From a virus, in the IMG/VR virus record IMGVR_UViG_3300042473_000568, positions 1 to 29,909 of that record: a stretch of DNA of 29,909 nt; one strand, 5' to 3'. Below the pieces are notes generated by a model. It did not search any database and was not told the origin of the DNA. It saw only the letters and a program-made list of their open reading frames with translations. Shown here piece after piece: positions 1,531 to 29,909 of this stretch. Made by a program: the position numbers and the translations under genes. Each line of letters begins with the position of its first letter. Position 1 is the first letter of the stretch.

Positions 1531-1759
1531 TAGTTTGAGTGGATTGAGTTGTTGTTTGCTGGGGAAGACGAGCTTTTGTGTAGGCTTCCAAATCACTCAC
1601 CGCTTTTTCAAATGACGACGGAAGGTGGTTAGCAACCCGGTGCTGCTGGATCAATCGCGCCATCGAATGAAAATCGTAATTCATCGGGTTTGGCGCGGTC
1701 CACTTGGTTGCGGGTTCGTAGAACTGCCATCCACCGTTTGGAAACGTGTTGTAATTCAT
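1481..1759 (-). CDS. Hypothetical 92-residue protein with C-terminal CxxC
   Basis: I do not recognise this protein. Its N-terminus is rich in aromatic residues and asparagine/proline (MNYNTFPNGGWQFYEP). A helical middle is followed by a low-complexity Gln/Thr stretch, and it ends in SGCRSCGGKG. The terminal CxxC resembles the short cysteine tails of small structural or assembly proteins, and two cysteine-pair genes in a row are notable. It lies 12 bases downstream of the SSB stop and overlaps the next gene, so it belongs to the leftward terminase-portal operon. Upstream of the ATG there is only a weak AGG-type ribosome binding site. A role in head assembly is a guess from position. Confidence 0.65.
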   Translation of the reverse strand: MNYNTFPNGGWQFYEPATKWTAPNPMNYDFHSMARLIQQHRVANHLPSSFEKAVSDLEAYTKARLPQQTTTQSTQTNAQPRVSGCRSCGGKG

Positions 1760-1771
1760 GCTGCCTGATTT

Positions 1772-2191
1772 TTAAAACGGCAGATCATCGGCGTCGAGAT
1801 CAGGCTTCGGCGCAGTCGGCGCGGACTCCTGGCGCGGCGCGGACGCGACACCTTCGCTGCGTTCCTTAAGAAACTGGAAGGTTTCGATCATAATCCGAGT
1901 GGTGGACCGCTTGTCGCCGGTCTTCTTGTCGTCCCACTCTTCCCGGGTTAGACGCCCTTCAATCATCAACGGATTACCTTTCCTGACGTATTGAGCGAGC
2001 GTTTCAGCCTGCTTCCCGAACGCCTTGCACTCAGCAAAGTACACGTCTTCCTTTTCCTCACCAGCCTCGGTCTTCCAGCGGCGATTCACTGCCATGCTGA
2101 GATTACAAACAGCAGTCCCTTTCGGAAGGTACTTGAGTTCTACGTCTCGGGTGAGGTTGCCGATCAGGATGACTTTGTTGAATGATGCCAT
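1772..2191 (-). CDS. ssb: Single-stranded DNA-binding protein (SSB)
   Basis: This 139-residue protein is a standard-length bacterial/phage SSB. It begins MASFNKVILIGNLTRDVELK, the typical first strand of the SSB OB-fold, with the conserved NRRW segment (about residues 36-39), the AFGKQAE motif and the VRKGNPLMIEGRL segment following in order to about residue 110. The linker is short and proline/alanine rich, and the last residues, DDLPF, form the acidic tip that recruits partner proteins. SSB coats single-stranded DNA during replication and recombination and would pair functionally with the RecT/RecE-like proteins encoded at 23.3-25.1 kb. Oddly, it lies between the terminase (4 bases upstream) and the head genes rather than in the early operon, so it is probably co-transcribed with packaging genes. 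No clear ribosome binding site is seen. Confidence 0.95.
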   Translation of the reverse strand: MASFNKVILIGNLTRDVELKYLPKGTAVCNLSMAVNRRWKTEAGEEKEDVYFAECKAFGKQAETLAQYVRKGNPLMIEGRLTREEWDDKKTGDKRSTTRIMIETFQFLKERSEGVASAPRQESAPTAPKPDLDADDLPF

Positions 2192-13281: not shown

Positions 13282-16200
13282 ATGCCTAAGCTCGTTGACG
13301 TTGAAAATATCGGGTTGATTGAGGTGCCCGACGACATGGGTGAAAACGAGCTTCTAGAGTTCGTTGGTACGTTAGATCAAGGCGCGCTACCCGCCGCAGG
13401 ATCCGCGCTGATGCGCGAAGGTGGCCGCATGGTCGGTGGAGGTATGATGGGCCTGACGCGTGTAGGCCTCGAAGAGCCAGCGCCATTAATCTCAGCAGCA
13501 CAGGCTGAAAGCCCAGCTGCGATGGCGGCCTACGAACGTAGGCAGGCAGCCTGGGAAAAGCGCGTCAAGGAGGTGTCGCCGGAGGAAACCATGGCTCGTG
13601 CAGCGATGCTTGAGGCCAGCCCGACATTCCAGATGGGCAAGGCGCTTCAAGAGGGCGCAAGAGAAGCATTCCCAGTCAATCCCCTTCGAGAAGATGATTT
13701 TCTCACACAAGTAGCAAGCGGGCTCGGCTCTTTGCCGGTGTCAGCGATGCCTGGAGGCCAGATTGTGTACGGACTCAGCACCGCAGAAGATGCGGCTCAA
13801 CGGGCTGGCCAGTTTTACGACGCCAAGATCGCGCAGGCATTGGCTGAAGGGAACATAACAGAGGTCAATCGCCTACAAGCTGAAAAGCCTACCAAACAGT
13901 ACCAAGCGGCTTTTTACACTGCGCCGATTGGTGGGCTTACGGAGCGGGTTATCGGAGCGGTGCCGGCAATCAATCAGGCGATAGCGGGCAAGGCAGGAAA
14001 AAACCTCCTACAAGATATCTTAAAACCGTTGGTCGGAGAAGCTGGTCAGGAGGGGTCAGAGCAATGGCTTGGCAACGCAGTCGCCAGGAAGACTTACAAC
14101 CCCGATCAGAAACTAAGCGAAGGCGTTTATGATTCGACTTCAGTCGGCGGAACGGTAGGTGGCCTGGTTGGATTAGTGACTGGCGGAGCAGGCCGTTATG
14201 GACGAGTTCGCAGGATGGGCCAGATCCAGGAGCAACGCCTTGTCGAAGGGCCTGCACCTGGAGGGCAGCGCCTTCAGGAAATCATCGACCGCCAAGCAGC
14301 CGGCGTCGCTGCTATCGGCGGCGATCCCAACCTCCCACTCCCCAACGCCACCGCCACCCTTGCTGGCATCAACTCCGGCGGCGCGCCTTCTGGACCGATT
14401 AAGCTCGTACCTCCAGGTAGGGCTGTTGTGCCGGCAGATGAAGAAGCCAAGATTCCAGACATAGCCCTAGAGACGGACGTAGGTGATGAGGAGACCCCAT
14501 CCGAAGTTACCGCTGTTGCGCCTGAGACGGTCGCTGCCGCTGAGACATCGGTCTCTACTACTCCCACCGAAGTCCAGCCGCTGACGGTTGAGGAGACTCA
14601 GGAATTTCTCTCAATCGTTGACGCCATCGGAGAAGGCTCAGTCACTGATGTTCTCCTTACTGATGAAGAGTTGATTCGTTTCGAGGGTTTTGTTGGCCGT
14701 ATTCGCCAGCTGCAAGATGCTGGGTTTCAGTTCGATGAGACCACGGGGTGGACTAAGCCTGAAGCTGCGGCCACCCCCGCCGTGGCCGAGACGCCGGCCG
14801 CGCCACAAGAGCCAACCCCGTTCAAGGTGGCGCCTGATTTCCGGTACACGATCACGGAGGCTCCGAATTACGGGTTTAGCCCGCTTTTATACGAAGACGC
14901 GGACTTCGATCTGGAGAGACTTCAAACACAAGCGGAACGAGGTCGTCTAACTGCGGAAGGATTTGCCCAATCCGAAATCGGAATGCGGATGGACAGCAGT
15001 CAGATGAGCGGTGTTAACAGCGGTTTAAAGGTAGATCCCGTTGGGACCATCAAAGCCTTGAGGGCCGCGCTGGTTCCTGCGCCGGCTGCGACTCCCACTC
15101 CCGCTGCTGTACCCACCTCACGCACGTTCCCGTTCCAGAACCGCACCGTGGATGGGATGATTGATCGTGACACTGGCGACATCGTTGCCTTCGCTAAGTC
15201 GATCGTTGGTAAACCTGAAGAACGTGGAAGCCAACCGAAGTACACCATCAGGGTTGATGAGGACGTCACGATTGAAGCGCAGTCCGAAAAGTCACTCGAC
15301 AATGCTCTTCAGAAGATTTCCAGCGGCGCTCCAGTTCGCGTGTTCCGGAACGCTGGTAAGGGTGTGACGCTGGATTTCAATAAGCCAGGGCCGGTGACGC
15401 CGACTCCTGCAAAACCACCCACCCCCGCCCCCGCACCCCGCCCCGCCCCTGCTGCTACACCCGCAATCGCCAACCAAAACGTTGGTCACGGGAAGTACGC
15501 CGCCCTCTTAGTCAAAGACCTCTTCGCGCAACAGCCGGACTACGCTATGTGGTTGGTCCGAAGCACCAGGAGCGCCGCCCCTGGGTCGCGCTCGCGCCAA
15601 GTTGGCGACTACATTAATTCACTGCCGGAATACCAGAACGCGGTCACAGAAGAGAAAGCGAAAGCCGAAGCAATCCTTACCGATGAAAACCAATCCTTCC
15701 TCACTGGCCTCAAGATTAAAGCCCGGCAGAACCCAGATGGTAGCATCACCCTCCGGGGTAAGACTTACGACCGCAAAGAAGAACTCACCAATGCCGGCGG
15801 ACGATATTCCGGAGCAGACAAGTCCTACACCATCTCTGCCGCCGGTCTTGGGCAGTTTATCGAGCGATCAAGAGCTGATTCGGGAGCTACTGGCGGACAA
15901 AGAAGTAGTAGCCCGGCTTATTCCCGTGATGTTGAACTCCGAAAACTCCGAGAGAATGCGGACAACCGGCCCGACCGAAGCGGATTGGACGGAGGCGTTG
16001 ACAAGTATCTTGACGTAGAAACTCAGGAGCTTATCCGCCAAGGTGAAGAGTTTGGCATCCCAAGAGAAGTTGGAGATGAGCAGATTGAAGACGCGGCCAT
16101 GATAGTGCGAGCGTTTGCGGAACGAGACACCCGGCCGTTCTTCATGCTTTCCAGCGCACCTGGAACCGGAAAGACCTTCGTGTTGGGGGCTGCTATTCGC

Positions 16201-19200
16201 GAGATAAAGGATAATTATTTCGCCCGCAAGATCATCTACGTGACCCTCAATCAAGGGTTGATTAATCAGATCAAACAGGATCTCAAGGCTTACAATATCG
16301 GCCCCGTGAAGTTTATCACCTACTCGGAGATGAAGAATCTCCCAGCGGAAGACTCAGACGTGATAATCTTCGACGAAGCGCACGCGATCAAGAACCTGGC
16401 TGGAAGCGGCTCAGAGCAGGCTAAGAAGGCTCAAGAGTGGATTCTTAAGACCAAGTTCCCAATCTTCTCAACCGCGACGCCGTTCGAGAACCCGACTCAG
16501 ACAGCCTACCTGCTGAACACTGGAATCTTTGATTCGTTCAACGGTGATTACAAACAGTTTGCTGCGGCCTACGGAGCAACTCCAATCAAAGGCGAAGGTG
16601 GTCAGGTAGTAAGAACCGTTTGGCTCCCAACTAAAACCAACGAGCAGGATCAAATTGCGGCGAGAAATTTCTTCCGCAAGGAGGGTATCTTTACGGCCCG
16701 AAAGACCCGGCTGCCAGCAAGCCAAGTTGATTCGCGCCTGGTGCCCATCAAAGGGGATGAAGAATGGACCAACACCTACAATGCGTTTGCGGCTGAAGCC
16801 GAGGCTCAAAAGGGCTCCCTCGATGGCACTGAAAAGATGTGGATCATCAACTACAAGAAGCGCCTGCTGGAAGCGTCTAAGATCAAGAACGCAATCAGCG
16901 AAGCACGCCGGGCCCTCAGTGCCGGAAGATGGCCGATCATATTCGTTGAGACCAAGGCAGAGAGAAGCATCGACATCCAAGAGCAGCTGAGGCTCCAGGA
17001 GCAATTCAAGCGAGCCAAAGCCATAGCAGATAGGACGGGAGGCGAAAGGCCGAAGCGTTCGGATTACCAAGGGTTGCTGTCAGACGGCATAATTAACGTG
17101 CTGGAAGCGACGATGGGGCAAATTGGCACCACTGTAATTTCGATACCGTCCGCTGAAGACGTGATCAAAAACGAGATTGGCGCCAACGATGTCGCGATCT
17201 TCACGGGTTCGGTGTCAGATGCGCGGGCCCAGAAAAATCTCGAACTCTGGCGCGGCGACAAGCCTATGGTCCTGGTCGCCACGATGGCCAAGGGCGGCAC
17301 AGGGCTATCGTTGCACGACAAGACTGGAACGCACCCGACAACCCAGATCAACGTCAACTTGCCGTGGACCGCATCTCAGGTGGAGCAGGTGTCGCTGCGG
17401 TCTGCGCGCTACGGACTCAGAGGTAAAGCCCAGATGATGTGGCTCTTCGCGGACAACATTCCGTTTGAGCGCGAACTGGCGACCCGAGTTGGTGGCCGCA
17501 TGAGGGACATGGGCGCGCTGGTTCAAGGAGAGGTGGGAGCTACCGCTACCAACATCAAGAACTTCAATTTCGAGGATGAATCATTCTCAGAGGCTAACGC
17601 TGCTGAGGCGGCCAAGAAGGACCTGACGAAGAAGGAGCCGACGCCTCCGGTGGCACTCACACCTCCTGTTACACCCGCACCCCCAGTCGCGCCTACACCT
17701 CCGGCTACACCTACCGCTCCCAAGAAAAGCTACAAAGCCCGCGCGTGGGCGTTCAAAGGAGACATCCTGGATGACATTATCAGCCTCGGTGGCGTCATGT
17801 CTAAGTCACAGGCCAGCAAAACGGGAAGACTCAAGGCGATCAAAGACCTGTACGATGACGCTCCAACGCTAGATGTGTATTTCAATAAAATCTTTGGAGG
17901 AAGGATAAGGGGCTCAAGAAGCGCAAATCAGCCTGACGTGTTACTCCAGGAACTCGCCATGGAAAACCCTGGCAAGTACGGAGACATGAGTGTGTCTGAG
18001 TTCTGGGATGAAGTTAAGAAGGCAGCACGCGGCCGCAAGGGGGACGTCGCTGCTGCTAAAGAGGAAACTAAGGCAGCGGAAGCCGGCGCCAAAGAGGCGA
18101 TCTTACAGGCGCAGGATGAAGCCTTCGTTGATGCTCAAACCGAGGGGATGCAGAATGCTAAAGAGCAAATCTCAGTCGGAAGCCTTGCGATTGGAGACAA
18201 GTTCAAGATTCAAGGTGAACAGTTTGAGGTTACAGCTGTTACTCCAGATGGAGGTTACACGATTCGCGATGGCGATAAATTTGGAGCTCAGCAACTGACC
18301 GAATACGACACATTGTTTGTCGATGAACCTCCTGATCGCGGAGGCGGAGATGCGTTTGAATTTCCTACCGAAGGGCCGGCTGCGCCCACCGAGCGTAAGC
18401 CACGTCTCGCAGCTGGACAGAACCAGGGAGACTTAATCTCCAGCACACAGGTCGAAGACTTTGCCCTGGTTGGAGAGAAGGGTGTAGACCTCGAAGCTCG
18501 TAAGCAAAAAGCCCAGGCCGCCGCACGTGCTGCTGCTGAAGCAAAGGCTGCCCAGGACAAGGCGCAGACGCAGATAGATCTAGGCGACGCCGTCGCCGAA
18601 GCCTCCGACGCGATCGCCCAGTTCGTCGAGTCTATCACCCCTAAGGCTGGCATCACCGAGGGTCCGACGCCCGAGGAGTCTGCGCGCCGGGTTCTCGAAG
18701 CCCTCGTTAATCTGGCATCCGTCGCGATTCGAGCCGGCGTCCGAAACGCATCGCTATGGGCGACCAGCTTGCAACTGAAGCTCAGCCCGGCGTTGCAGTA
18801 CGCCTGGGACCGCGCTCAGGGATCTACGGCCGAACCCACACCAGAGGTGATCGCTGATGTAGCCACCTTGCCGGAGCGTGCGAATAGCAGCGACTTCGGT
18901 GTGATCTACAGTACGCCCGGCAAGCCTGTAACCACCAAGCGTGGCGCATACGAGGACACTGTCGCCGGCCGACGGTCTAGGACTCCTGAGGTTGTAAATG
19001 CTGGTATCCAGCTGGCGGTTGATGCGTTCAACGAGGCGGGGATTAAATTCCGCCAGGTGGCAGACGGGTTGTTCGCGCCGGTCGATGGGGTTAACCAGGA
19101 GGATGCTGGAAGAAAACTGATCGAGGTCGCCAAAAAGAAGATCGCCAAAGCTAAGTCTGATGGACGCAGCGATACCATCGCAGAACTGATTCAGTCGCTA

Positions 19201-22200
19201 CGCAACGACTTCGGAGTCTCTGAGGCATTCAGCCCTGATACCCGAGATGAACTCTACCTGATCGGTCAGTCTGAGGCGTCTGAGTTCGGCCGCAACCTGG
19301 CGAGCCTGAAGGCATCAGTGAAGGACTTCGTGGCCATGGCTCGCAATGTGCGCGGATTCCTTACATCAGCCATCTACGACAGCTTCAACGGTGAGAGCGT
19401 TAAGGGTGTGATGGACAAGATCATGACCGAGTTTCGAGGCCAGTTCACTGAAGCGGAGATACAGAAGATCGTTGGCGAGAAGCCTGACCTCCAGGAGATG
19501 CTGAATCGGTTTGGAGTCCTGGCGCTGGCCGATACCGGTGGCCGCGTTTACCGCACTGTCCAGGCGCGCCTGACTACCAAGAAGCCGAAAACTCAGAAGG
19601 AGAAACAGGAACGCGAGATTGAGAATGAAGCTATCGACCAGATTATCGAGAACGCTTTAGCCCTCGGGGTTACCGAGCCTCCCCAGCCTCCGAATCGAAA
19701 GCTCACTCCCGACGAGCGCCTCGCGCTGATGACCAAGCCTGCGACCCAGGCCAAGGTCCAGAAAGCCACCGAGGATGCAGTCAAGCAGGCCGAGTTCAAC
19801 GCTGGATGGGCGGTTATGATGGCCAGCGCAGCCGGCAATGAGGAGCTTCGCGCTCAGTATCAGGAAGCCATAGACGCCAAAGAAGAGCCCGATCCAGAGG
19901 CGATCGAGGAGGGTCTCGACCTCCCGGAGTACGCCCACTGGCGCACGATCCGCGACGGGTTCCTAAACTACTCGCCGACCACCCTGAAACTCGCCCAGGA
20001 CGTAATCCGTGGCCGGTTCAAGGGCACGCAGTTCGGAACCAAGAAGGTCACCCCTGCGGCGCCTGCCAAGATCAACCTCGTTCGCCTGGTGCAGTCTCCC
20101 AATGCCGAGATGAGCCGCGTGATCGGAGAGCAGCTGGCCGCCATCGAAGGAGTGATGGACCTGGCCGGCGCGTCCCCCGAGGCTAAAGCCCGCGTGATGC
20201 AGATGGTTACGGCCAATGTGGGGTCACAGATCCAGCTGGCCCGCCAGCGTGTGTTGAACAACTTCCTAGAGGTGAAGGCTAAGGCTGGCCCTACCACGGC
20301 CAGTGATAGTCTACAGCGGCTAATCAACGCCGGCATCACTGAAGATAAACGCTACCAATCCGAGCCCACCCGTAAACTCCTGAAGCGCGTCGCTAAGACC
20401 TACCTGACGGCCGACGAGCTTTCCGGGATGGCGACCAGGACTCGGGCCGAGAAGCTCGCGTTCCTCACCGGCAAGCTGAACCAGATCGTCGCAGCCGAGA
20501 ATCTGGCCGATGAGTGGATGCAGGGCGCTGTCTGGACTTACCTCACCGAGCGGATGATGGAAGCTGAGAACGCAGTAGTCTCCCAGATCGTGGGAGCCAA
20601 GGACGTGAGCTTCGATCCAGCACAGCCGAAGACTGATGCTCAGCTGGCGGCCGACCGGGCTAAGGCCGTCGAGCGCTTAGAAGGCGGTATCCGTGCCGGC
20701 CTGCTGGACCAGCGCATCGCTGAGAGCGTCGCTAGGAACCCCGCGTTGCAGCGGCTGGTTCCCAAGATGAGTGACCTAGTGAAGCGGGTTCTCAACACCC
20801 CGCAAGCTGGCCAGGCCAATCTAGCTAAAGCATTCTCAGAAGCGTTGCTGTCAGAACTAGCGATCGACCAGGCGCTGGCTGACAAGACTGGCGTTGCGTT
20901 AGCTAAGGCGTTCGAGGCGAAGTTTGAGCGGGCGCGCATTCAGGCGCTAGACAAGGCGACCCAGAAGCTCACCGGCAAACAACGCGAGGAGGCCGGCCCG
21001 GGCACCCCGCTCTGGCAGAAAATCGAGCAGTTCGTGAACGCAGGCGGCATGAACTCGGCGGCGCTTCTGCAAAGCATCGCGAAGAAATCAGGCTGGAAGG
21101 TTCCGACCGATGAGGAGGTTTCCCGCTTCCGAGACTTAGCGCGCCTGGAGCAGGAACTCAGCACGGCTACCGAAGAGGAGATCAACGCCGGCATCACGGA
21201 TGACATCAAGGCTGCGATGAACGAGGGCAAGCGCATGGACGTTATGCGTGAACTCCAGATGCGTTGGGCGCGGATGACCATGCCGATCCGTGGCAACAAG
21301 CAGAACCTGGCAAGGGCGGCCAAGGAATACGGGTCGGCAAACACGATTTTCAAATTTGGTTTCATCACCAAGCAGCTGATCGACGTGGCTACCCAGATGT
21401 TCGTTTACACGCCGTCGCGTGCAGGTGCGACAGCGATCCAAAGATTCATATCCAGTCGCGACCCGAATCGCACACTCCGCCTCTGGAAGGATACGGCGAC
21501 CACCCTCGAAGATGCCTACAAGGCGCGCTTCAACGCGCTTAACATGGCGTACAAATCCGCGCTCCAGGCCGCCAAAGGCCGCGCTGAAAAGGATACCATC
21601 ATGGGTCTGCAGAGCGGGATGCGGGCACTGGATCGCGCTAACGCGGAGGCTGCTGAGTACTACAAGACCGGCAAATACGCGCAGGCCACGGTGCTTCGCA
21701 TTCTTGGGCTCGCGCAGTTGTCCTATCGCTTCGCCTCATCCCTCGACGCATTCCAAGGCGTCCTGGCTGAACAACAGGAAATTGGGGCTTGGACAGAATC
21801 ACAGCTGCGCCTTCAAGGCATGGCGCCGGCCGAGGCACGTAAGGCTGCGAAGACAATTATGGGCGACGCTTTGGCTGAGTACGCGCTGGCTCAGACACTG
21901 GTCGGGGATAATCCCAATATCGCGCCCAAGGATCGTAGCGCCGCTGCATGGAACGTGGTGCGAGCACGGCAGTATCAACGCATTGCGACAGCTGGTTTGG
22001 ATGCGGGAGACATCAAAGGTATCACGCAAAATCTACGGTCTACCATTGGATGGAACGTCGAAGAGGAGGGCGGCCCTGGTGGCGTCATTGGGCAAGCGAT
22101 GAAATCCACCGGGAAAATCCTGTCGCGCGTCGGGATTCCGGATCTTCTGGGAATGTTCTCGAACGCCGTTGCAATCGGAGTCAACCGAGGGTTCACGTTT

Positions 22201-23223
22201 GCTGGCGGCGGCTTTGTTCCCAGCGCGTTTGAGGGGTCAGCCTGGTACAAGACTGAGACCGACAAGGTGCAACGGAAGATCGAGGCTGCGGCAGGATTGG
22301 GGCTTTCTGGTTTGTTTGTTGGATTAGTGCTCTCGGGCGCACTGCGAGTCTTCACTCACTGGCCTGACGACAAGGAAGAGGCTGATCTTTGGGAGCGTGA
22401 GGGTCATAAGCCGAACACCATGGAACTTGATTTACCAGGCGGGAAAATACTCCGCGTTTCGCTTAGCACTGGACCGTTCCAGTTCGTTCGACCAGCGCTG
22501 GCCGCTGTCGGTGAGCTTCAGTACCAACAAGCGAGGCGCGACCGTCTCAATCAAAAAGCTGGAGCCGCTGCCAAAAAGAAAGGTCTGAAGTTTGAGCCCC
22601 GAGAACTCACCGCCATGGATATTGTCAGCGCACTGGGTTACGGCGCCTGGTCTGCCATAGCCCAAGGGCGCACTACTTCCGGTCTTATCGGAGCCGGCAC
22701 CTATCGCGGAACAGCAGATGTAGGCAAGATCGCGGCCGCTGCCGTGAGCCCCTTGATTCCGTTTGGCCCCCTCATGCGCGAGGCAACCGCTATGTCCGGC
22801 GCGCAGTTCAATCCCAAGGACCAAACCTTCATCAACCTCCTGGTCCCGACACCCTGGAGCGGAAAGGTTGACCGAAACTTCCTGGGAGACCCGGTCGGAA
22901 CACCGCGCGCCCAGGAGCGCATCATGTCTATCCTGACCGGCGGCACTGCAATCGTGGGCGGCGAAGATCCTGATCGCGCTTACCAGGTACTAGCCAAGAC
23001 TGGATGGACGCCGGCCACCCCTCAGAGCAACAAGTTCTTTCAGTTCGGGCGCGTGCAGCGCCAGGCTACACCAGAGGAGCTGACCAGGATGCAAGAGGTG
23101 CGAGCGGTCGAGCTTAAGACCCGCATCTCGCAACTCGATCCAGCTACGGCGACCAAGAGGCAGCTGGATCGCATCGAAGATATCGCGAACGCAAAATCGA
23201 AAAAATCAGTGGGAATCCGATAA
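13282..23223 (+). CDS. Giant polyvalent protein with Snf2-like helicase core
   Basis: An unbroken 3313-codon frame. Residues 1-40 carry the IEVPDDMGENELLEFV segment seen at the start of large ejected phage proteins. About 140-310 is glycine/alanine rich with a hydrophobic stretch (VGGLVGLVTGGAG). Proline-rich linkers lie near 700-730 and 1453-1480. Near 733-761, NVGHGKYAALLVKDLF...PDYAMWLV resembles an ExoX-type C-terminal module; near 808-862 an RGKTYDRKEEL segment is a second small module. The helicase core has Walker A APGTGKT (959-965), DEAH (1031-1034), STATP (from 1063), and motif VI with Q1369, R1373, R1376 and G1378 in the Snf2 spacing. A beta-barrel-like segment is at 1634-1672 and a probable membrane helix at 3002-3025. 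The C-terminal half is long and helical. It is likely packaged and ejected to act on DNA early; substrate unknown. Confidence 0.85.
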   Translation: MPKLVDVENIGLIEVPDDMGENELLEFVGTLDQGALPAAGSALMREGGRMVGGGMMGLTRVGLEEPAPLISAAQAESPAAMAAYERRQAAWEKRVKEVSPEETMARAAMLEASPTFQMGKALQEGAREAFPVNPLREDDFLTQVASGLGSLPVSAMPGGQIVYGLSTAEDAAQRAGQFYDAKIAQALAEGNITEVNRLQAEKPTKQYQAAFYTAPIGGLTERVIGAVPAINQAIAGKAGKNLLQDILKPLVGEAGQEGSEQWLGNAVARKTYNPDQKLSEGVYDSTSVGGTVGGLVGLVTGGAGRYGRVRRMGQIQEQRLVEGPAPGGQRLQEIIDRQAAGVAAIGGDPNLPLPNATATLAGINSGGAPSGPIKLVPPGRAVVPADEEAKIPDIALETDVGDEETPSEVTAVAPETVAAAETSVSTTPTEVQPLTVEETQEFLSIVDAIGEGSVTDVLLTDEELIRFEGFVGRIRQLQDAGFQFDETTGWTKPEAAATPAVAETPAAPQEPTPFKVAPDFRYTITEAPNYGFSPLLYEDADFDLERLQTQAERGRLTAEGFAQSEIGMRMDSSQMSGVNSGLKVDPVGTIKALRAALVPAPAATPTPAAVPTSRTFPFQNRTVDGMIDRDTGDIVAFAKSIVGKPEERGSQPKYTIRVDEDVTIEAQSEKSLDNALQKISSGAPVRVFRNAGKGVTLDFNKPGPVTPTPAKPPTPAPAPRPAPAATPAIANQNVGHGKYAALLVKDLFAQQPDYAMWLVRSTRSAAPGSRSRQVGDYINSLPEYQNAVTEEKAKAEAILTDENQSFLTGLKIKARQNPDGSITLRGKTYDRKEELTNAGGRYSGADKSYTISAAGLGQFIERSRADSGATGGQRSSSPAYSRDVELRKLRENADNRPDRSGLDGGVDKYLDVETQELIRQGEEFGIPREVGDEQIEDAAMIVRAFAERDTRPFFMLSSAPGTGKTFVLGAAIREIKDNYFARKIIYVTLNQGLINQIKQDLKAYNIGPVKFITYSEMKNLPAEDSDVIIFDEAHAIKNLAGSGSEQAKKAQEWILKTKFPIFSTATPFENPTQTAYLLNTGIFDSFNGDYKQFAAAYGATPIKGEGGQVVRTVWLPTKTNEQDQIAARNFFRKEGIFTARKTRLPASQVDSRLVPIKGDEEWTNTYNAFAAEAEAQKGSLDGTEKMWIINYKKRLLEASKIKNAISEARRALSAGRWPIIFVETKAERSIDIQEQLRLQEQFKRAKAIADRTGGERPKRSDYQGLLSDGIINVLEATMGQIGTTVISIPSAEDVIKNEIGANDVAIFTGSVSDARAQKNLELWRGDKPMVLVATMAKGGTGLSLHDKTGTHPTTQINVNLPWTASQVEQVSLRSARYGLRGKAQMMWLFADNIPFERELATRVGGRMRDMGALVQGEVGATATNIKNFNFEDESFSEANAAEAAKKDLTKKEPTPPVALTPPVTPAPPVAPTPPATPTAPKKSYKARAWAFKGDILDDIISLGGVMSKSQASKTGRLKAIKDLYDDAPTLDVYFNKIFGGRIRGSRSANQPDVLLQELAMENPGKYGDMSVSEFWDEVKKAARGRKGDVAAAKEETKAAEAGAKEAILQAQDEAFVDAQTEGMQNAKEQISVGSLAIGDKFKIQGEQFEVTAVTPDGGYTIRDGDKFGAQQLTEYDTLFVDEPPDRGGGDAFEFPTEGPAAPTERKPRLAAGQNQGDLISSTQVEDFALVGEKGVDLEARKQKAQAAARAAAEAKAAQDKAQTQIDLGDAVAEASDAIAQFVESITPKAGITEGPTPEESARRVLEALVNLASVAIRAGVRNASLWATSLQLKLSPALQYAWDRAQGSTAEPTPEVIADVATLPERANSSDFGVIYSTPGKPVTTKRGAYEDTVAGRRSRTPEVVNAGIQLAVDAFNEAGIKFRQVADGLFAPVDGVNQEDAGRKLIEVAKKKIAKAKSDGRSDTIAELIQSLRNDFGVSEAFSPDTRDELYLIGQSEASEFGRNLASLKASVKDFVAMARNVRGFLTSAIYDSFNGESVKGVMDKIMTEFRGQFTEAEIQKIVGEKPDLQEMLNRFGVLALADTGGRVYRTVQARLTTKKPKTQKEKQEREIENEAIDQIIENALALGVTEPPQPPNRKLTPDERLALMTKPATQAKVQKATEDAVKQAEFNAGWAVMMASAAGNEELRAQYQEAIDAKEEPDPEAIEEGLDLPEYAHWRTIRDGFLNYSPTTLKLAQDVIRGRFKGTQFGTKKVTPAAPAKINLVRLVQSPNAEMSRVIGEQLAAIEGVMDLAGASPEAKARVMQMVTANVGSQIQLARQRVLNNFLEVKAKAGPTTASDSLQRLINAGITEDKRYQSEPTRKLLKRVAKTYLTADELSGMATRTRAEKLAFLTGKLNQIVAAENLADEWMQGAVWTYLTERMMEAENAVVSQIVGAKDVSFDPAQPKTDAQLAADRAKAVERLEGGIRAGLLDQRIAESVARNPALQRLVPKMSDLVKRVLNTPQAGQANLAKAFSEALLSELAIDQALADKTGVALAKAFEAKFERARIQALDKATQKLTGKQREEAGPGTPLWQKIEQFVNAGGMNSAALLQSIAKKSGWKVPTDEEVSRFRDLARLEQELSTATEEEINAGITDDIKAAMNEGKRMDVMRELQMRWARMTMPIRGNKQNLARAAKEYGSANTIFKFGFITKQLIDVATQMFVYTPSRAGATAIQRFISSRDPNRTLRLWKDTATTLEDAYKARFNALNMAYKSALQAAKGRAEKDTIMGLQSGMRALDRANAEAAEYYKTGKYAQATVLRILGLAQLSYRFASSLDAFQGVLAEQQEIGAWTESQLRLQGMAPAEARKAAKTIMGDALAEYALAQTLVGDNPNIAPKDRSAAAWNVVRARQYQRIATAGLDAGDIKGITQNLRSTIGWNVEEEGGPGGVIGQAMKSTGKILSRVGIPDLLGMFSNAVAIGVNRGFTFAGGGFVPSAFEGSAWYKTETDKVQRKIEAAAGLGLSGLFVGLVLSGALRVFTHWPDDKEEADLWEREGHKPNTMELDLPGGKILRVSLSTGPFQFVRPALAAVGELQYQQARRDRLNQKAGAAAKKKGLKFEPRELTAMDIVSALGYGAWSAIAQGRTTSGLIGAGTYRGTADVGKIAAAAVSPLIPFGPLMREATAMSGAQFNPKDQTFINLLVPTPWSGKVDRNFLGDPVGTPRAQERIMSILTGGTAIVGGEDPDRAYQVLAKTGWTPATPQSNKFFQFGRVQRQATPEELTRMQEVRAVELKTRISQLDPATATKRQLDRIEDIANAKSKKSVGIR

Positions 23224-23230
23224 TCCTGTA

Positions 23231-23259
23231 TTGACGTTGCGTGCCACTTGCCATACGTT
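23231..23259 (+). promoter_or_regulatory. Candidate early promoter before recT
   Basis: TTGACG at 23231-23236 is close to the sigma70 -35 consensus. With a 17-base spacer, TACGTT at 23254-23259 is a weak -10 (3 of 6). Transcription would begin near 23266, only a few bases before the ATG at 23269, so the transcript may be nearly leaderless. It is the only gap over 40 bases between the giant gene and the early operon. Confidence 0.4.
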
Positions 23260-23271
23260 GCCATACGTATG
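23248..23271 (+). promoter_or_regulatory. Tandem repeat plus palindrome over recT start
   Basis: TTGCCATACG occurs twice in direct tandem (23248-23257 and 23258-23267). The second copy runs into the perfect 10-base palindrome CATACGTATG (23262-23271), whose last three bases are the ATG. This could be an operator that a repressor uses to block the early promoter and start codon together. No binding protein is identified, although HTH genes lie in the same operon. Confidence 0.45.
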
Positions 23272-24252
23272 AGCAACCTACAAGTCGCAACACAGCAAGC
23301 ACAACCTCTCAGCGCCTTCTCTTCGGAGAACGCGTTCGTCTCAGTCCAACGCATGGCCAAGGCCCTTGCGTCCAGCACCCTCGTTCCCGACGCCTACCGG
23401 GGCGAGGCCAACCTCGGAAACTGCATCATCGCTCTGGAACTCAGCCAGCGCATTGGCGCCTCGGTCATGGCTGTCATGCAGTCCATGGTTCCTATCCACG
23501 GCAAGCCCACCTGGTCTGCTAGCTTCCTGATCGCCACCGTCAACAGCTGCGGTCGGTTCAGTCCGATGCGTTTCCGCTGGGTTGGAAAAGAGGGGACAGA
23601 TGAGTGGGGCTGCCGCGCCTTCGCAGTCGAGCGCGACTCGAACCTCGAACTCGTTGGCGCCCTCGTGAACATCAACATGGCCAAGGTCGAGGGTTGGTAC
23701 GGCAAGTCTGGCTCCAAGTGGAAGACCATGCCGGAGCAGATGCTCCAGTACCGGGCTGGCGCCTTCTGGTGCCGCACCTACGCGCCCGAGATCGCACTTG
23801 GTATGCACACCTCGGAAGAGGTTCAGGACACGCCTGTGGCCCAGCAGGTAGTCCAGTCGGTCAGCGCGACTGTCAGTTCATCCATCGTAGACGTGACACC
23901 GACGCCGGCCGAACCGAAGCCGCGCAAGAAGAAGGAGGCCGAGGCTATTGCAATCGTGGAGCCGCCCGCTCCCGCCGCTCCTGAACCCGCACCGGAGATC
24001 GTTGAGACCGCACCCGCCCCGGTCGCACCTGTTCCCGCGCCGGAGCCTGAGCTTGAAACCGTCGAAGGGACGCTAGCATCCGCTGGGATCACCTACGAGC
24101 AGCTGGTGAAGCTGGTCATAGACCTGAAGTGGTGGGAAAACCCCGAAGCCTATCCCACGGTGGCAGACCTTCCTCCTGATATCTGCAACTGGATCATCCG
24201 GAATAAGCGCGGTATCGGCCGTGCAGTGGTGAAGGCGGGAATGAACGCGTGA
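23269..24252 (+). CDS. recT: RecT-family single-strand annealing recombinase
   Basis: This 327-residue protein anneals complementary single strands in phage recombination. The core (about residues 1-185) has the family layout: NCIIALELSQRIG, then VMAVMQSMVPIHGKPTWSA, IATVNSCGRF, a cysteine-containing strand, GALVNINMAKVEGW, and the distinctive SKWKTMPEQMLQYRAGAFW stretch ending in ALGMHTSEEVQD. The tail (about 195-265) is a proline/alanine/glutamate-rich linker followed by a small acidic helical domain that may bind a partner such as SSB. The ATG at 23269 is preferred over an in-frame ATG at 23248 because it begins the conserved region and sits at the palindrome. It is the first gene of the early operon, followed by a RecE-type exonuclease. 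The assignment is strong from motif pattern; no search was run. Confidence 0.85.
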   Translation: MSNLQVATQQAQPLSAFSSENAFVSVQRMAKALASSTLVPDAYRGEANLGNCIIALELSQRIGASVMAVMQSMVPIHGKPTWSASFLIATVNSCGRFSPMRFRWVGKEGTDEWGCRAFAVERDSNLELVGALVNINMAKVEGWYGKSGSKWKTMPEQMLQYRAGAFWCRTYAPEIALGMHTSEEVQDTPVAQQVVQSVSATVSSSIVDVTPTPAEPKPRKKKEAEAIAIVEPPAPAAPEPAPEIVETAPAPVAPVPAPEPELETVEGTLASAGITYEQLVKLVIDLKWWENPEAYPTVADLPPDICNWIIRNKRGIGRAVVKAGMNA

Positions 24253-24299
24253 AGGTAAACCCAGCTTGGCGCACAGCTGAATACCGATTAGATCCACCC

Positions 24300-25094
24300 A
24301 TGAAACTTATCCACCCCATCGACGTACATCAGTACCGCAGTCACCCCGCGATCAACATCTCCAGCCTCAAGGCGTTCAGCCGGTCGCCGGCCCACGCTAT
24401 GATTGGCTTCGAGGAAGAACGCGAGCCGTCCGAGGCCATGGCGATCGGCTCCCTGCTGGATCACAAGGTCCTCGGGACGCCGTACCTTTGGACCACATCT
24501 CCCTACGACGACTTCAGAACCAAAGAAGCACGCGCCTGGCGAGAGGACCAGGAGTACCGCCGGGTCACCGTGTTTAAGCAGGACGCCATCGAAACCGTCG
24601 AGCGCATGGTTGAGGCGGTCCGATTGCATCCAGTTGCCGGCCGCCTACTGGCCGAGCCGGGTAAGGCCCAGGTTGGGATGTTTGGCGAGTTCGAGTCCTG
24701 CGAACGCAAAGGCTTGATCGATTGGTTGCCCAACACGACCCCGGTAATCGTGGACCTGAAGAAATGCCGCGATGCTAGCAAGGCTGGGTTCCGCCGGCAG
24801 ATCGGCCAGCTGCGCTACGACGTGCAGGCGGCGTACTACCGGGACCTCTACCGGGATATCACTGGCGAGACCCGCGCATGGCAGTGGATTTGCGTCGAAG
24901 ACCAGGCGCCCTACGCGGTCGCTGTTTACCAGATGGACACCGAATCCTTGGACAAGGGTTCAGCCACATGGCAGTCGTGGATCCGACAGTGGATGGTCTG
25001 CGAGGACACCGACAGCTGGCCGGGTTACAACGGCGACTCCATTCAAATCATTCAATCGCCCACCTGGATTCTCAAAGATGAAACTCTCCCGTGA
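24300..25094 (+). CDS. RecE/PD-(D/E)XK-like exonuclease
   Basis: This 264-residue protein likely degrades duplex ends to make the single strands used by the RecT-like partner. The N-terminus (YRSHPAINISSLKAFSRSPA) matches RecE-type nucleases (exonuclease VIII C-terminal domain). GSLLDHKV (His55) stands where RecB-type nucleases place their active-site histidine. Catalytic acidic residues appear in GLIDWLP (Asp141) and VIVDLKK (Asp152, Lys154), followed by a QLRYDVQAAYYRDLY helix with the family's Gln/Tyr pattern. The frame continues to a GTG at 24249 that overlaps the recT stop as GTGA; that start would add 17 residues and favours coupling, while the ATG at 24300 fits the family length. Its last 17 bases overlap the next gene. 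Confidence 0.8.
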   Translation: MKLIHPIDVHQYRSHPAINISSLKAFSRSPAHAMIGFEEEREPSEAMAIGSLLDHKVLGTPYLWTTSPYDDFRTKEARAWREDQEYRRVTVFKQDAIETVERMVEAVRLHPVAGRLLAEPGKAQVGMFGEFESCERKGLIDWLPNTTPVIVDLKKCRDASKAGFRRQIGQLRYDVQAAYYRDLYRDITGETRAWQWICVEDQAPYAVAVYQMDTESLDKGSATWQSWIRQWMVCEDTDSWPGYNGDSIQIIQSPTWILKDETLP

Positions 25095-27556: not shown

Positions 27557-27859
27557 CTACTTCTTAGAGGCCACAACAGCAAGTGTTTTTATCACCCGAT
27601 CGGACAGATCCTTGCAGGGCTTGAAGAATATCTTCGGCCTCGGCGGGATCTCGATCTCGATCTTGGGCTTCAGTGGATTCCGGCCAATCATTGTCTTGGT
27701 CCAACGCACCTCGAACTTACCCACGCCGGGCAGTTCAAACTCCCCCTTGAGGATTTCCTGCACGATGATCTCGGTCAGCGAACCGACAACCTTGTCGGCG
27801 TGCATGACCAGGAGCCCGCACTCATCGCTCAGGCGCTGCGCTATGTGCCGGCGCTTCAT
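27557..27859 (-). CDS. HU/IHF-family DNA-binding protein
   Basis: This 100-residue protein matches the HU/IHF fold: N-terminal helices (HADKVVGSLTEIIVQEIL), then the beta saddle with ELPGVGKFEV (about 42-51), a GRNP motif (59-62), and FFKPCKDLSDRV at the end of the arm region. Length and the GRNP motif are as expected for the family. It would bend or compact DNA, either phage DNA during replication or packaging or the host chromosome. It is the last gene of the leftward block and shares one base (TGATG) with the upstream gene. The terminator near 27.5 kb follows about 36 bases downstream. Confidence 0.85.
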   Translation of the reverse strand: MKRRHIAQRLSDECGLLVMHADKVVGSLTEIIVQEILKGEFELPGVGKFEVRWTKTMIGRNPLKPKIEIEIPPRPKIFFKPCKDLSDRVIKTLAVVASKK

Positions 27860-29016: not shown

Positions 29017-29348
29017 TCTTCAATCTGCGCCTTGGCCTTCGCGATCGCTGAAACGATCTGATTATGTAAGGCAAGCGGGCGGTCTGTCAGGGTTCCGTCG
29101 TCACCATACAACCCCACCAGGTGATCTTCGGCAGCTTCCAACGCGGCCAATAAATCCGGAGCCGCAGCCATCAACGCAGCGTTCGCCAGGGCGTGGTGTA
29201 CGTGCGGCGCAAACGGCATCACATTAACCTGAGCTAATACTAACGGCCCCTGGGGGTGGTCCCGGTCGCGGTCGTCGAGGATCCTCAGGACATCCCACGT
29301 CGAGTTAAACCTGTCCGGCTGGTAATCAACGACCCAGCGCTTACACAT
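29013..29348 (-). CDS. Small phage accessory protein
   Basis: This 111-residue protein has the C-terminal segment NAALMAAAPDLLAALEAAED, a helical signature common among small phage proteins of unknown function. The first half (VVDYQPDRFNSTWDVLRILD) is a mixed strand region. The ATG at 29348 has a strong ribosome binding site (GGAGGT about 6 bases upstream) and overlaps the previous gene by 8 bases. No function is assigned. Confidence 0.7.
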   Translation of the reverse strand: MCKRWVVDYQPDRFNSTWDVLRILDDRDRDHPQGPLVLAQVNVMPFAPHVHHALANAALMAAAPDLLAALEAAEDHLVGLYGDDGTLTDRPLALHNQIVSAIAKAKAQIED

Positions 29349-29909
29349 AAACCACCTCCACAGTTACCGTCGGCGCCTGGACCACGCTGCCGTCAATAAA
29401 CCGGACATCGACCCACCCGGCGCCTACAGCGATCACCATCCCGGTCATCCCGCTGCGCGTCGTGACGAAATCCCCCAGGGTGGGCGGGCGCTGAGCCTCG
29501 GCCGGCCAATCGGCGCGCGCGGACCCGACAGCGGCAAGCTCGGCCTGGCCTTCCTCTTCGAGCGCATCCTGGCGCATCCTGGTCATCCCTGCGGGCGTCA
29601 TCGGGTAGGCTCGGGCTCTGGGCGCTTCCACCTGGCGACCGTCTCGGAGCCAGCAGACCTCGGGCAGACCTCGGCCGTCGTGGTCCGTCCATTCTCCGCC
29701 GACCAGGAACGCGCGGCCCGCGATCATCTGGCGACCGTTCAGGACCCAGACGGTCTTCTCGTGCCGCATCATTCCCTCTTCATCAACCCACAGCTCGCCA
29801 CCGTCGAGGCGGACGCATTCGAGTAGGTCGCATTTAACCCAGGCTTTCGCGCTGTCCCAGGTGTGAGTCTGGGCGGTTATGGTTCGTTTGGTTGGGTCTA
29901 TTGCCCAAC
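29341..29909 (-). CDS. DUF3846-like protein with beta-barrel tail, 5' end cut
   Basis: The reading frame is open without a stop to the right edge, so the apparent ATG at 29772 is internal and the true start lies outside the window. The visible product (about 188 residues) contains WAIDPTKRTITAQ, ELWVDEEGMMR and RQMIAGRAFLVGGEW in the order I know from DUF3846-type phage proteins (unknown function). After a low-complexity helix, the C-terminus has GDFVTTRSGMTGMVIAVGAG followed by VDVRFIDGS, a pattern of an SH3/KOW-like barrel. The two parts together may be a fusion. The 3' end overlaps the next gene by 8 bases. The family name is a recollection, not a search result. Confidence 0.65.
   Translation of the reverse strand, partial: WAIDPTKRTITAQTHTWDSAKAWVKCDLLECVRLDGGELWVDEEGMMRHEKTVWVLNGRQMIAGRAFLVGGEWTDHDGRGLPEVCWLRDGRQVEAPRARAYPMTPAGMTRMRQDALEEEGQAELAAVGSARADWPAEAQRPPTLGDFVTTRSGMTGMVIAVGAGWVDVRFIDGSVVQAPTVTVEVVYV

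Follow-up and report, generated by a model that had tools for sequence, protein, structure and literature searches.

The lambda cI gene is transcribed from the promoter P-RM into a leaderless mRNA with an A/C-rich 5' sequence after the AUG. Leaderless mRNAs with downstream CA repeats were reportedly treated by Martin-Farmer and Janssen in 1999. Conserved boundary sequences, finally, are a feature of the borders between phage modules. In an excerpt of PMC9031893, lambda cI mRNA is named as leaderless, and leaderless translation is described as enhanced by CA repeats by the start codon and hindered by 5' distance and by structure. An excerpt of PMC4611024 also treats CA multimers, with and without a 5' UTR, and one of PMC10986495 reports leaders of Lactococcus cremoris (L. 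cremoris) of <5 nt or of about 40 nt, with none between 4 and 14. The excerpt of the AR9 paper (PMC5312081) mentions as an aside that phage transcripts often have no leader, and the kind of start discussed here is thus already known.

The window, by which we mean the whole stretch of DNA analysed, is 29909 bases long and constitutes a virus record. An earlier note on it had singled out the 41 bases 23231-23271 in front of a recT gene. We consider it likely that they form a compact promoter of the host sigma70 type, which would serve an early unit of recT and exonuclease and start its message close to the AUG. The following features are used throughout.

23231..23236, + strand: -35 hexamer TTGACG; relatives have TGGACA, TAGACA or TTGACA, with 5/6 or 6/6 matches in 35/35 haplotypes
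23254..23259, + strand: -10 hexamer TACGTT of the TAnnnT type; TACNNT in 35/35 haplotypes
23248..23267, + strand: tandem decamer, two units of TTGCCATACG (23248-23257 and 23258-23267)
23262..23271, + strand: palindrome CATACGTATG, containing the ATG at 23269-23271 and read here as a by-product
23267, + strand: likeliest transcription start, a G giving a 2-nt leader, as predicted from the -10 hexamer; the alternatives are A23269 (leaderless) and A23265
23269..24252, + strand: gene of a recT-like ssDNA annealing protein with ATG start (phrog_561, E 2e-63)
23272..23316, + strand: the 15 codons that follow the ATG, rich in CA and poor in G, with 9 CA in 45 nt
24249..25094, + strand: exonuclease VIII-like gene (DUF3799, PDDEXK), which follows recT as the second of the unit (phrog_412, E 2e-62; PF12684, E 1.3e-29)
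13282..23223, + strand: ORF of 3313 aa with helicase motifs, upstream of recT; its stop codon lies 7 nt 5' of the -35 hexamer

The locus shares with lambda cI that a phage gene would be read by the host RNA polymerase from a start at or near the AUG, with no Shine-Dalgarno sequence and A/C-rich sequence after the AUG, the polymerase and the start point being predictions in the case of recT. Unlike cI, recT serves recombination and is grouped with an exonuclease gene; no repressor circuit is seen, and a leader of 2 nt is likely, the start being predicted from sequence. Its first codons are CA-rich after the AUG as in the CA-repeat leaderless mRNAs, whereas the recT start is a natural sequence with no CA multimer. 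Gene content and neighbourhood resemble those of phage RecT/exonuclease VIII modules (phrog_561, phrog_412). The match to named phages, in contrast, is limited to 49-51% over about half of the protein for the RecT of phi297 and Magia, and the five phage records with DNA matches cover recT coding sequence only and not the promoter. Like the conserved module-boundary sequences, this is a short kept block where different upstream genes join, but here the block is a unit of promoter and start codon. In our best reading the recT promoter is ordinary in kind. Among the titles and abstract openings listed for phage promoters with leaderless starts, none concerns this phage family or a leaderless recT, and a search on recT, early operons and freshwater gave no such paper either. 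The interest of the case is that it is natural and well conserved: in 35 haplotypes of uncultured phages the promoter is locked to the start codon, and the locking comes with a codon choice that fits leaderless initiation.

With respect to the genes concerned, the phrog_561 profile assigns the product of recT to the RecT-like annealing proteins; against the Pfam RecT profile it scores 22.1 bits, which is under the cut-off of 24 bits. Profile searches of the exonuclease used the segment 24297-25091, and an exonuclease VIII-like gene is found in 39/39 loci having sufficient downstream sequence. These two genes downstream are the reason why we infer an early timing. The helicase-like part of the upstream 3313-aa ORF comprises ResIII, AAA_34 and a weak strawberry-notch C-terminal match, and among the relatives the gene ends found in its place vary. 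No match in phage records was obtained for two proteins from what is presumably the virion region, and RNA family models gave 0 hits in the window at gathering score.

Relatives were collected by an IMG/VR protein search with RecT, which gave at least 79 distinct loci, and by a search of genome contigs, which gave 12 further ones. Of the latter, L081 (65% identity) and L082 (80%) fit the group; both are short contigs, labelled Nitrospiraceae and Gammaproteobacteria, and the other genome-contig loci have 33-51%. The analysed set of 52 recT starts consists of the window, L001-L049, L081 and L082. The tallies leave aside the 30 loci L050-L079, which are mostly distant RecT matches (L061 and L065, in contrast, are close but truncated), and the comparison does not include L084-L092. 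The upstream regions of L050-L054 and L083, inspected by eye, show no promoter of the recT type. The string ATGAGCAA served to locate 51/52 starts; L048 does not have it, and its start codon was picked by hand. After dropping L005, which has just 10 nt upstream, 51 loci remain for the haplotype counts, and these collapse to 35 distinct haplotypes over the region -45..+12. Column statistics are based on 30 haplotypes, leaving out L042, L043, L046, L048 and L081. Counts of loci are not independent, because the loci were picked by recT similarity, 51/52 starts were found via ATGAGCAA, and the loci are related.

The TTGACG box claimed by the earlier note is indeed present at 23231-23236, and in the window it is separated from TACGTT by a 17-bp spacer. 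The same arrangement recurs in 35/35 haplotypes: a -35 hexamer matching at 5/6 or better, 16-17 bp, TACNNT, 8-9 nt and the ATG of recT. The -35 match is 5/6 in 34 haplotypes and 6/6 in L048, the spacer has 17 bp in 32 haplotypes and 16 bp in 3, and the distance from the -10 to the ATG is 9 nt in 32 and 8 nt in 3. Conserved hexamers 16-18 bp apart, as in sigma70-type promoters, are thus present in all 35/35. For comparison, 0/2457 control ATG contexts show even a looser form (TAnnnT with a -35 of 5/6); these controls are the starts of ORFs of at least 100 codons on both strands of the same loci, many of which are not real genes. The -10 hexamer is mostly TACGTT or TACGGT, with TACAGT in L046, TACGCT in L081 and TACGAT in L048; in L046 and L081 it lies in altered surroundings, still 9 nt from the ATG. 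Among the 30 haplotypes, four of six columns of the -35 hexamer are invariant, and mean column identity is 0.92 for the -10 and 0.89 for the nine bases 5' of the ATG, compared to 0.63 for 66 fourfold sites within recT and 0.47 over -100..-51.

Support for this recT-proximal promoter comes from conservation and not from its score. The best score per haplotype is 8/12 in 33 cases and 9 and 10 in the remaining two; the window has 8/12 and is absent from the output of the promoter scan, since the -10 is weak. The core ATACGKTGACTGACGYATG occurs in 39 IMG/VR stretches, and all 39 contigs, going by their names, are within the loci of the recT search. A TTGAC-TAC pattern matched 22 times in 21 records. 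Of these matches, 14 are those of recT, and the 8 at other places are as many as the reversed control gave; records with no TTGAC-form match at recT carry TGGACA or TAGACA. Of the eight matches elsewhere, the five checked (all except those in G003, G008 and G013) include none that leads an ORF in this geometry. The site before recT is probably a conserved, compact and near-leaderless promoter of the sigma70 type, to which RNA polymerase would bind via TTGACG (23231) and TACGTT (23254).

The block also coincides with a border between modules. By a rough clustering at 70% identity, the upstream gene ends fall into 8 modules, 4 of which have more than one locus, and in 51/51 loci an open frame upstream has its stop 2-9 nt 5' of the -35 (set at -38). 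Module 0 pairs with the core types A' (4), A (5), B (3) and C (1), and module 1 with A, A' and B. As one module is thus combined with several core types, exchanges have probably occurred within the stretch from -35 to -10 or close to it. One might suppose on these grounds that the block is kept chiefly for its homology, as a joint at which virion and early modules recombine, and not as a promoter, and the combination of 8 upstream modules with several core types is what such a joint would give. We judge this very unlikely, because the spacing of -35 and -10 is fixed and the -35 varies by module yet keeps its match: the forms TTGACG, TGGACA, TAGACA and TTGACA track the upstream module, so that the box is kept through different bases. 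Moreover, a joint is compatible with the promoter explanation and does not compete with it. In our best reading the recT promoter also marks a mosaic joint.

Further upstream there are other candidate sites, from which a leadered message could start. In the window, TCGAAA-16-GATAAT (23197-23224) scores 9/12, above the proximal site, and TCGAAA-16-AAAAAT (8/12) is found in 14 other loci; in total, 29/51 loci have a site of 8-9/12 at -120..-39, equal to or above the proximal one, which counts against our preferred explanation. RecT could thus be made from such a message, or by read-through from the upstream operon, while the 41-base site is weak or not used. That this is so appears quite unlikely to us. 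The 9/12 combination TCGAAA-GATAAT is present in 8/51 loci, compared to 35/35 haplotypes for the proximal promoter, and the 13 loci with GATAAT are the 13 of one upstream module. The same scan finds no site at -120..-39 in 20/51 loci, the kinds of upstream site differ among loci, unlike the proximal promoter, and in the window there is no Shine-Dalgarno sequence for such a message.

For the proximal promoter, the nominal start as counted from the -10 is about 23266-23267. Seven bases lie between the end of the -10 (23259) and G23267, and a gap of seven bases is usual for a start at a purine that follows a pyrimidine. Position -2 is a G in 51/51 loci, and position -3 is a C in 50/51. Transcription would hence begin at about G23267, and given the invariant G the message most likely starts with GUAUG or with AUG. 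A start at G23267 would leave GU as the leader, and one at A23269 would leave none; with the ATG 9 nt past the -10, a 2-nt leader is more usual than a true AUG at +1. In 40/51 loci a stop codon lies in frame 6 nt 5' of the ATG, so that translation of recT cannot begin upstream in those loci; the window does not have this stop, and its frame is open back to a TTG at 23248. The start codon is AUG, as in the leaderless class, the ATG being also part of the string by which 51/52 starts were located. With the conservation of the promoter and the in-frame stop, the prediction of the earlier note that transcription starts a few bases 5' of the recT ATG gains support.

It had likewise been noted that recT in the window has no Shine-Dalgarno sequence. 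This is borne out by an anti-SD energy of about 0, and the nearest types of the window also have no match. Over 13 distinct recT leaders the mean is -3.6, near the background of -4.0. In L081 a GGAGG is present, but too distant upstream to serve. A GGTGA just upstream, formed by TACGGT and GA, occurs in 17/51 loci; it is weakly Shine-Dalgarno-like (about -6 kcal/mol) and usable by a longer message, which speaks against our explanation in these loci. Another point against it is that several further window genes also have no good Shine-Dalgarno sequence, their starts being partly nominal; strong ones are found at the genes 25574, 25810, 27859 and 29013, again with partly nominal start positions.

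The first codons of recT are in good agreement with what leaderless translation would predict. In the first 45 nt, 9 or more CA are reached by 0/206 control ORF starts, and the mean folding energy is -4.7 kcal/mol at recT starts versus -11.8 kcal/mol in the controls, of which 20/206 fold as weakly as the recT start of the window. The CA-richness is partly that of a Gln/Thr/Ala-rich N-terminus. It does not reflect amino-acid choice only, because synonymous codons are shifted as well: in 27 recT genes, comparing codons 1-15 with codons 31-200, CAA makes up 74/106 versus 13/196 of the Gln codons, GCA 36/53 versus 39/586 of the Ala codons and CTA 21/54 versus 3/297 of the Leu codons, and ACA has 19/43 versus 21/244. 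The first and later codons of 105 other long ORFs give 31/75 and 237/915 for CAA, 37/156 and 337/2027 for GCA, and 8/163 and 98/1305 for CTA. The recT median of A-ending codons is reached by 3/92 other long ORFs. CCA and GTA show no excess in the first codons of recT over those of other genes, and L048 has a different 5' coding sequence. The CA-rich codons are possibly an enhancer of leaderless initiation. Ribosomes would then initiate on the near-leaderless 5' end with no Shine-Dalgarno sequence, aided by CA-rich and weakly structured codons. On a read-through message from the upstream gene, the recT AUG would be internal and, in the window type, have no Shine-Dalgarno sequence. Such a message would presumably be translated poorly, and we therefore propose that recT is made mainly from its own promoter.

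The start codon of the window is embedded in the perfect palindrome CATACGTATG, present at 23262-23271 as the earlier note had described and called operator-like there. Perfect 10-bp palindromes number 18 in the window, against 30.5 +/- 5.7 in 60 dinucleotide shuffles. Looking for this one elsewhere, as had been proposed, we found it to be the sole copy in the window within one mismatch (0.40 expected), and among relatives it occurs in 5/52 loci (the window, L001, L003, L019 and L045), always at the recT start. In the 21 records it is found in 2, at a single place each (window, G003). The operator of a temperate-phage repressor would be conserved or repeated, which this palindrome is not; the outcome is thus the one that the earlier note itself had named as speaking against its reading. 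On the grounds of both conservation and chance, the palindrome was discarded as an operator. It arises as a by-product where the duplicated CATACG meets the widely kept CGTATG at the start codon, and it is incidental, being confined to a few members of the family. The comparison thus tells a supported feature, the promoter geometry, from a striking incidental one.

A wider dyad, CATACG-N7-8-CGTATG at the start point, might still be a repressor operator that blocks the promoter, as might CATACGTATG. The dyad is present in 26/35 haplotypes, including the distant L081 with a different middle, and HTH-like proteins follow within the early unit. Half of it, however, is fixed by the ATG and by the TAC of the -10, and it is broken by changes at -17 and -1 with no compensation. 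Of the lysogeny genes one would look for, the Phage_integrase profile, which covers that integrase type, matches 0/21 and HTH_3 matches 2/21 records of unrated completeness. The window's HTH-like proteins at 25084, 25329 and 26988 are found in 33/37, 31/36 and 18/28 loci, respectively, and loci that do not have them still have the promoter, among them L040, L041, L047 and L048, where those at 25084 and 25329 are not found. An operator at the start point is therefore highly doubtful. The idea of the earlier note that repression is coupled to the start of translation finds no support; what appears to be coupled is the start of transcription with the start of translation. In both records with HTH_3, a match to sigma70 region 4 lies in a nearby open frame of equal length, a few kb beyond recT, on the same strand. 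This HTH_3 (Cro/CI-type) plus sigma70 region 4 combination of about 207-213 aa in the early unit is located at L039:9412-10035 (+), where it is seen as one protein, and in the record of L027 at G006:C1 about 1659-2129 (-), and is possibly a phage transcription factor.

The tandem repeat that the earlier note had seen at the recT promoter is exact, two units of TTGCCATACG at 23248-23267. An origin by chance is unlikely: unit-10 exact tandems number 2 in the window and 2/60 shuffles had one, while a 10/10 adjacent repeat occurs in 0/3000 random 41-nt segments of the same loci. The exact tandem is found in 5/51 loci, and its 24-base form in IMG/VR, among the matches listed, occurs beyond the window only in the contigs of L001, L003, L019 and L045. 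In most relatives the second unit differs, being TTGACTGACG, GTGACTGACG, TTGACACACG or another sequence. The decamers, near TNGNCATACG and one of them over the -10, could be direct-repeat sites of a regulator on one face of the helix. Agreement of 10/10 in the window type, and of 9/10 in both L048 (TAGACATACT-TAGACATACG) and L081 (GAGACATACG-GAGGCATACG), compares with 9/10 or better in just 3/3000 random segments, and columns outside the hexamers, e.g. TTGC, are invariant in the 30 haplotypes. Against this, the units agree at 5-8/10 in most haplotypes, and 7/10 or better is reached by 93/3000 random segments. The second unit also lies downstream of the -10 unit in the window and upstream of it in L048 and L081, and an IMG/VR scan with the distant form of the decamer gave 66 stretches, whose contexts are rarely promoter-like. 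Altogether we regard such regulator sites as unlikely. The scan was incomplete, as its output does not include the L048 contig, in which the pattern is present.

A widespread decamer operator was likewise rejected on the few promoter-like contexts among those 66 IMG/VR stretches, in a scan that missed the known positive L048. Near-by gene content was looked at for one stretch, L140. This unrelated contig has three tandem decamers like TGACATACGG at L140:3559-3605, between terminase-like and portal-like, i.e. packaging-like, genes as named by eye. In the window, the minus-strand ORF 29341-29772 contains two more exact tandem repeats, with units of 10 and 11 bp (29562-29582 and 29653-29674).

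Taking the repeats and the start codon together, one may imagine phages, probably lytic, in which translation separates early from late recT, the AUG being 5'-terminal only in messages from the promoter, and in which a regulator on the tandem CATACG decamers controls the site. If true, read-through messages from the virion operon would have no 5'-terminal AUG, and the second CATACG copy would lie on either side of the -10, depending on the lineage. We give this combined scheme very little probability, and retain the reading as a near-leaderless sigma70-type promoter.

Two other regions of the window deserve mention. The protein encoded at 26350-26991 matches phrog_3704 (label ferredoxin, E 4e-20, residues 47-213), and its segment 26440-26991 is present in 25/29 relatives. 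A leftward unit includes a gene of an HU/IHF-type DNA-binding protein (27557-27859, - strand; PF00216, E 3e-14), just past which lies a terminator-like hairpin of 12 pairs (27521-27494, - strand).
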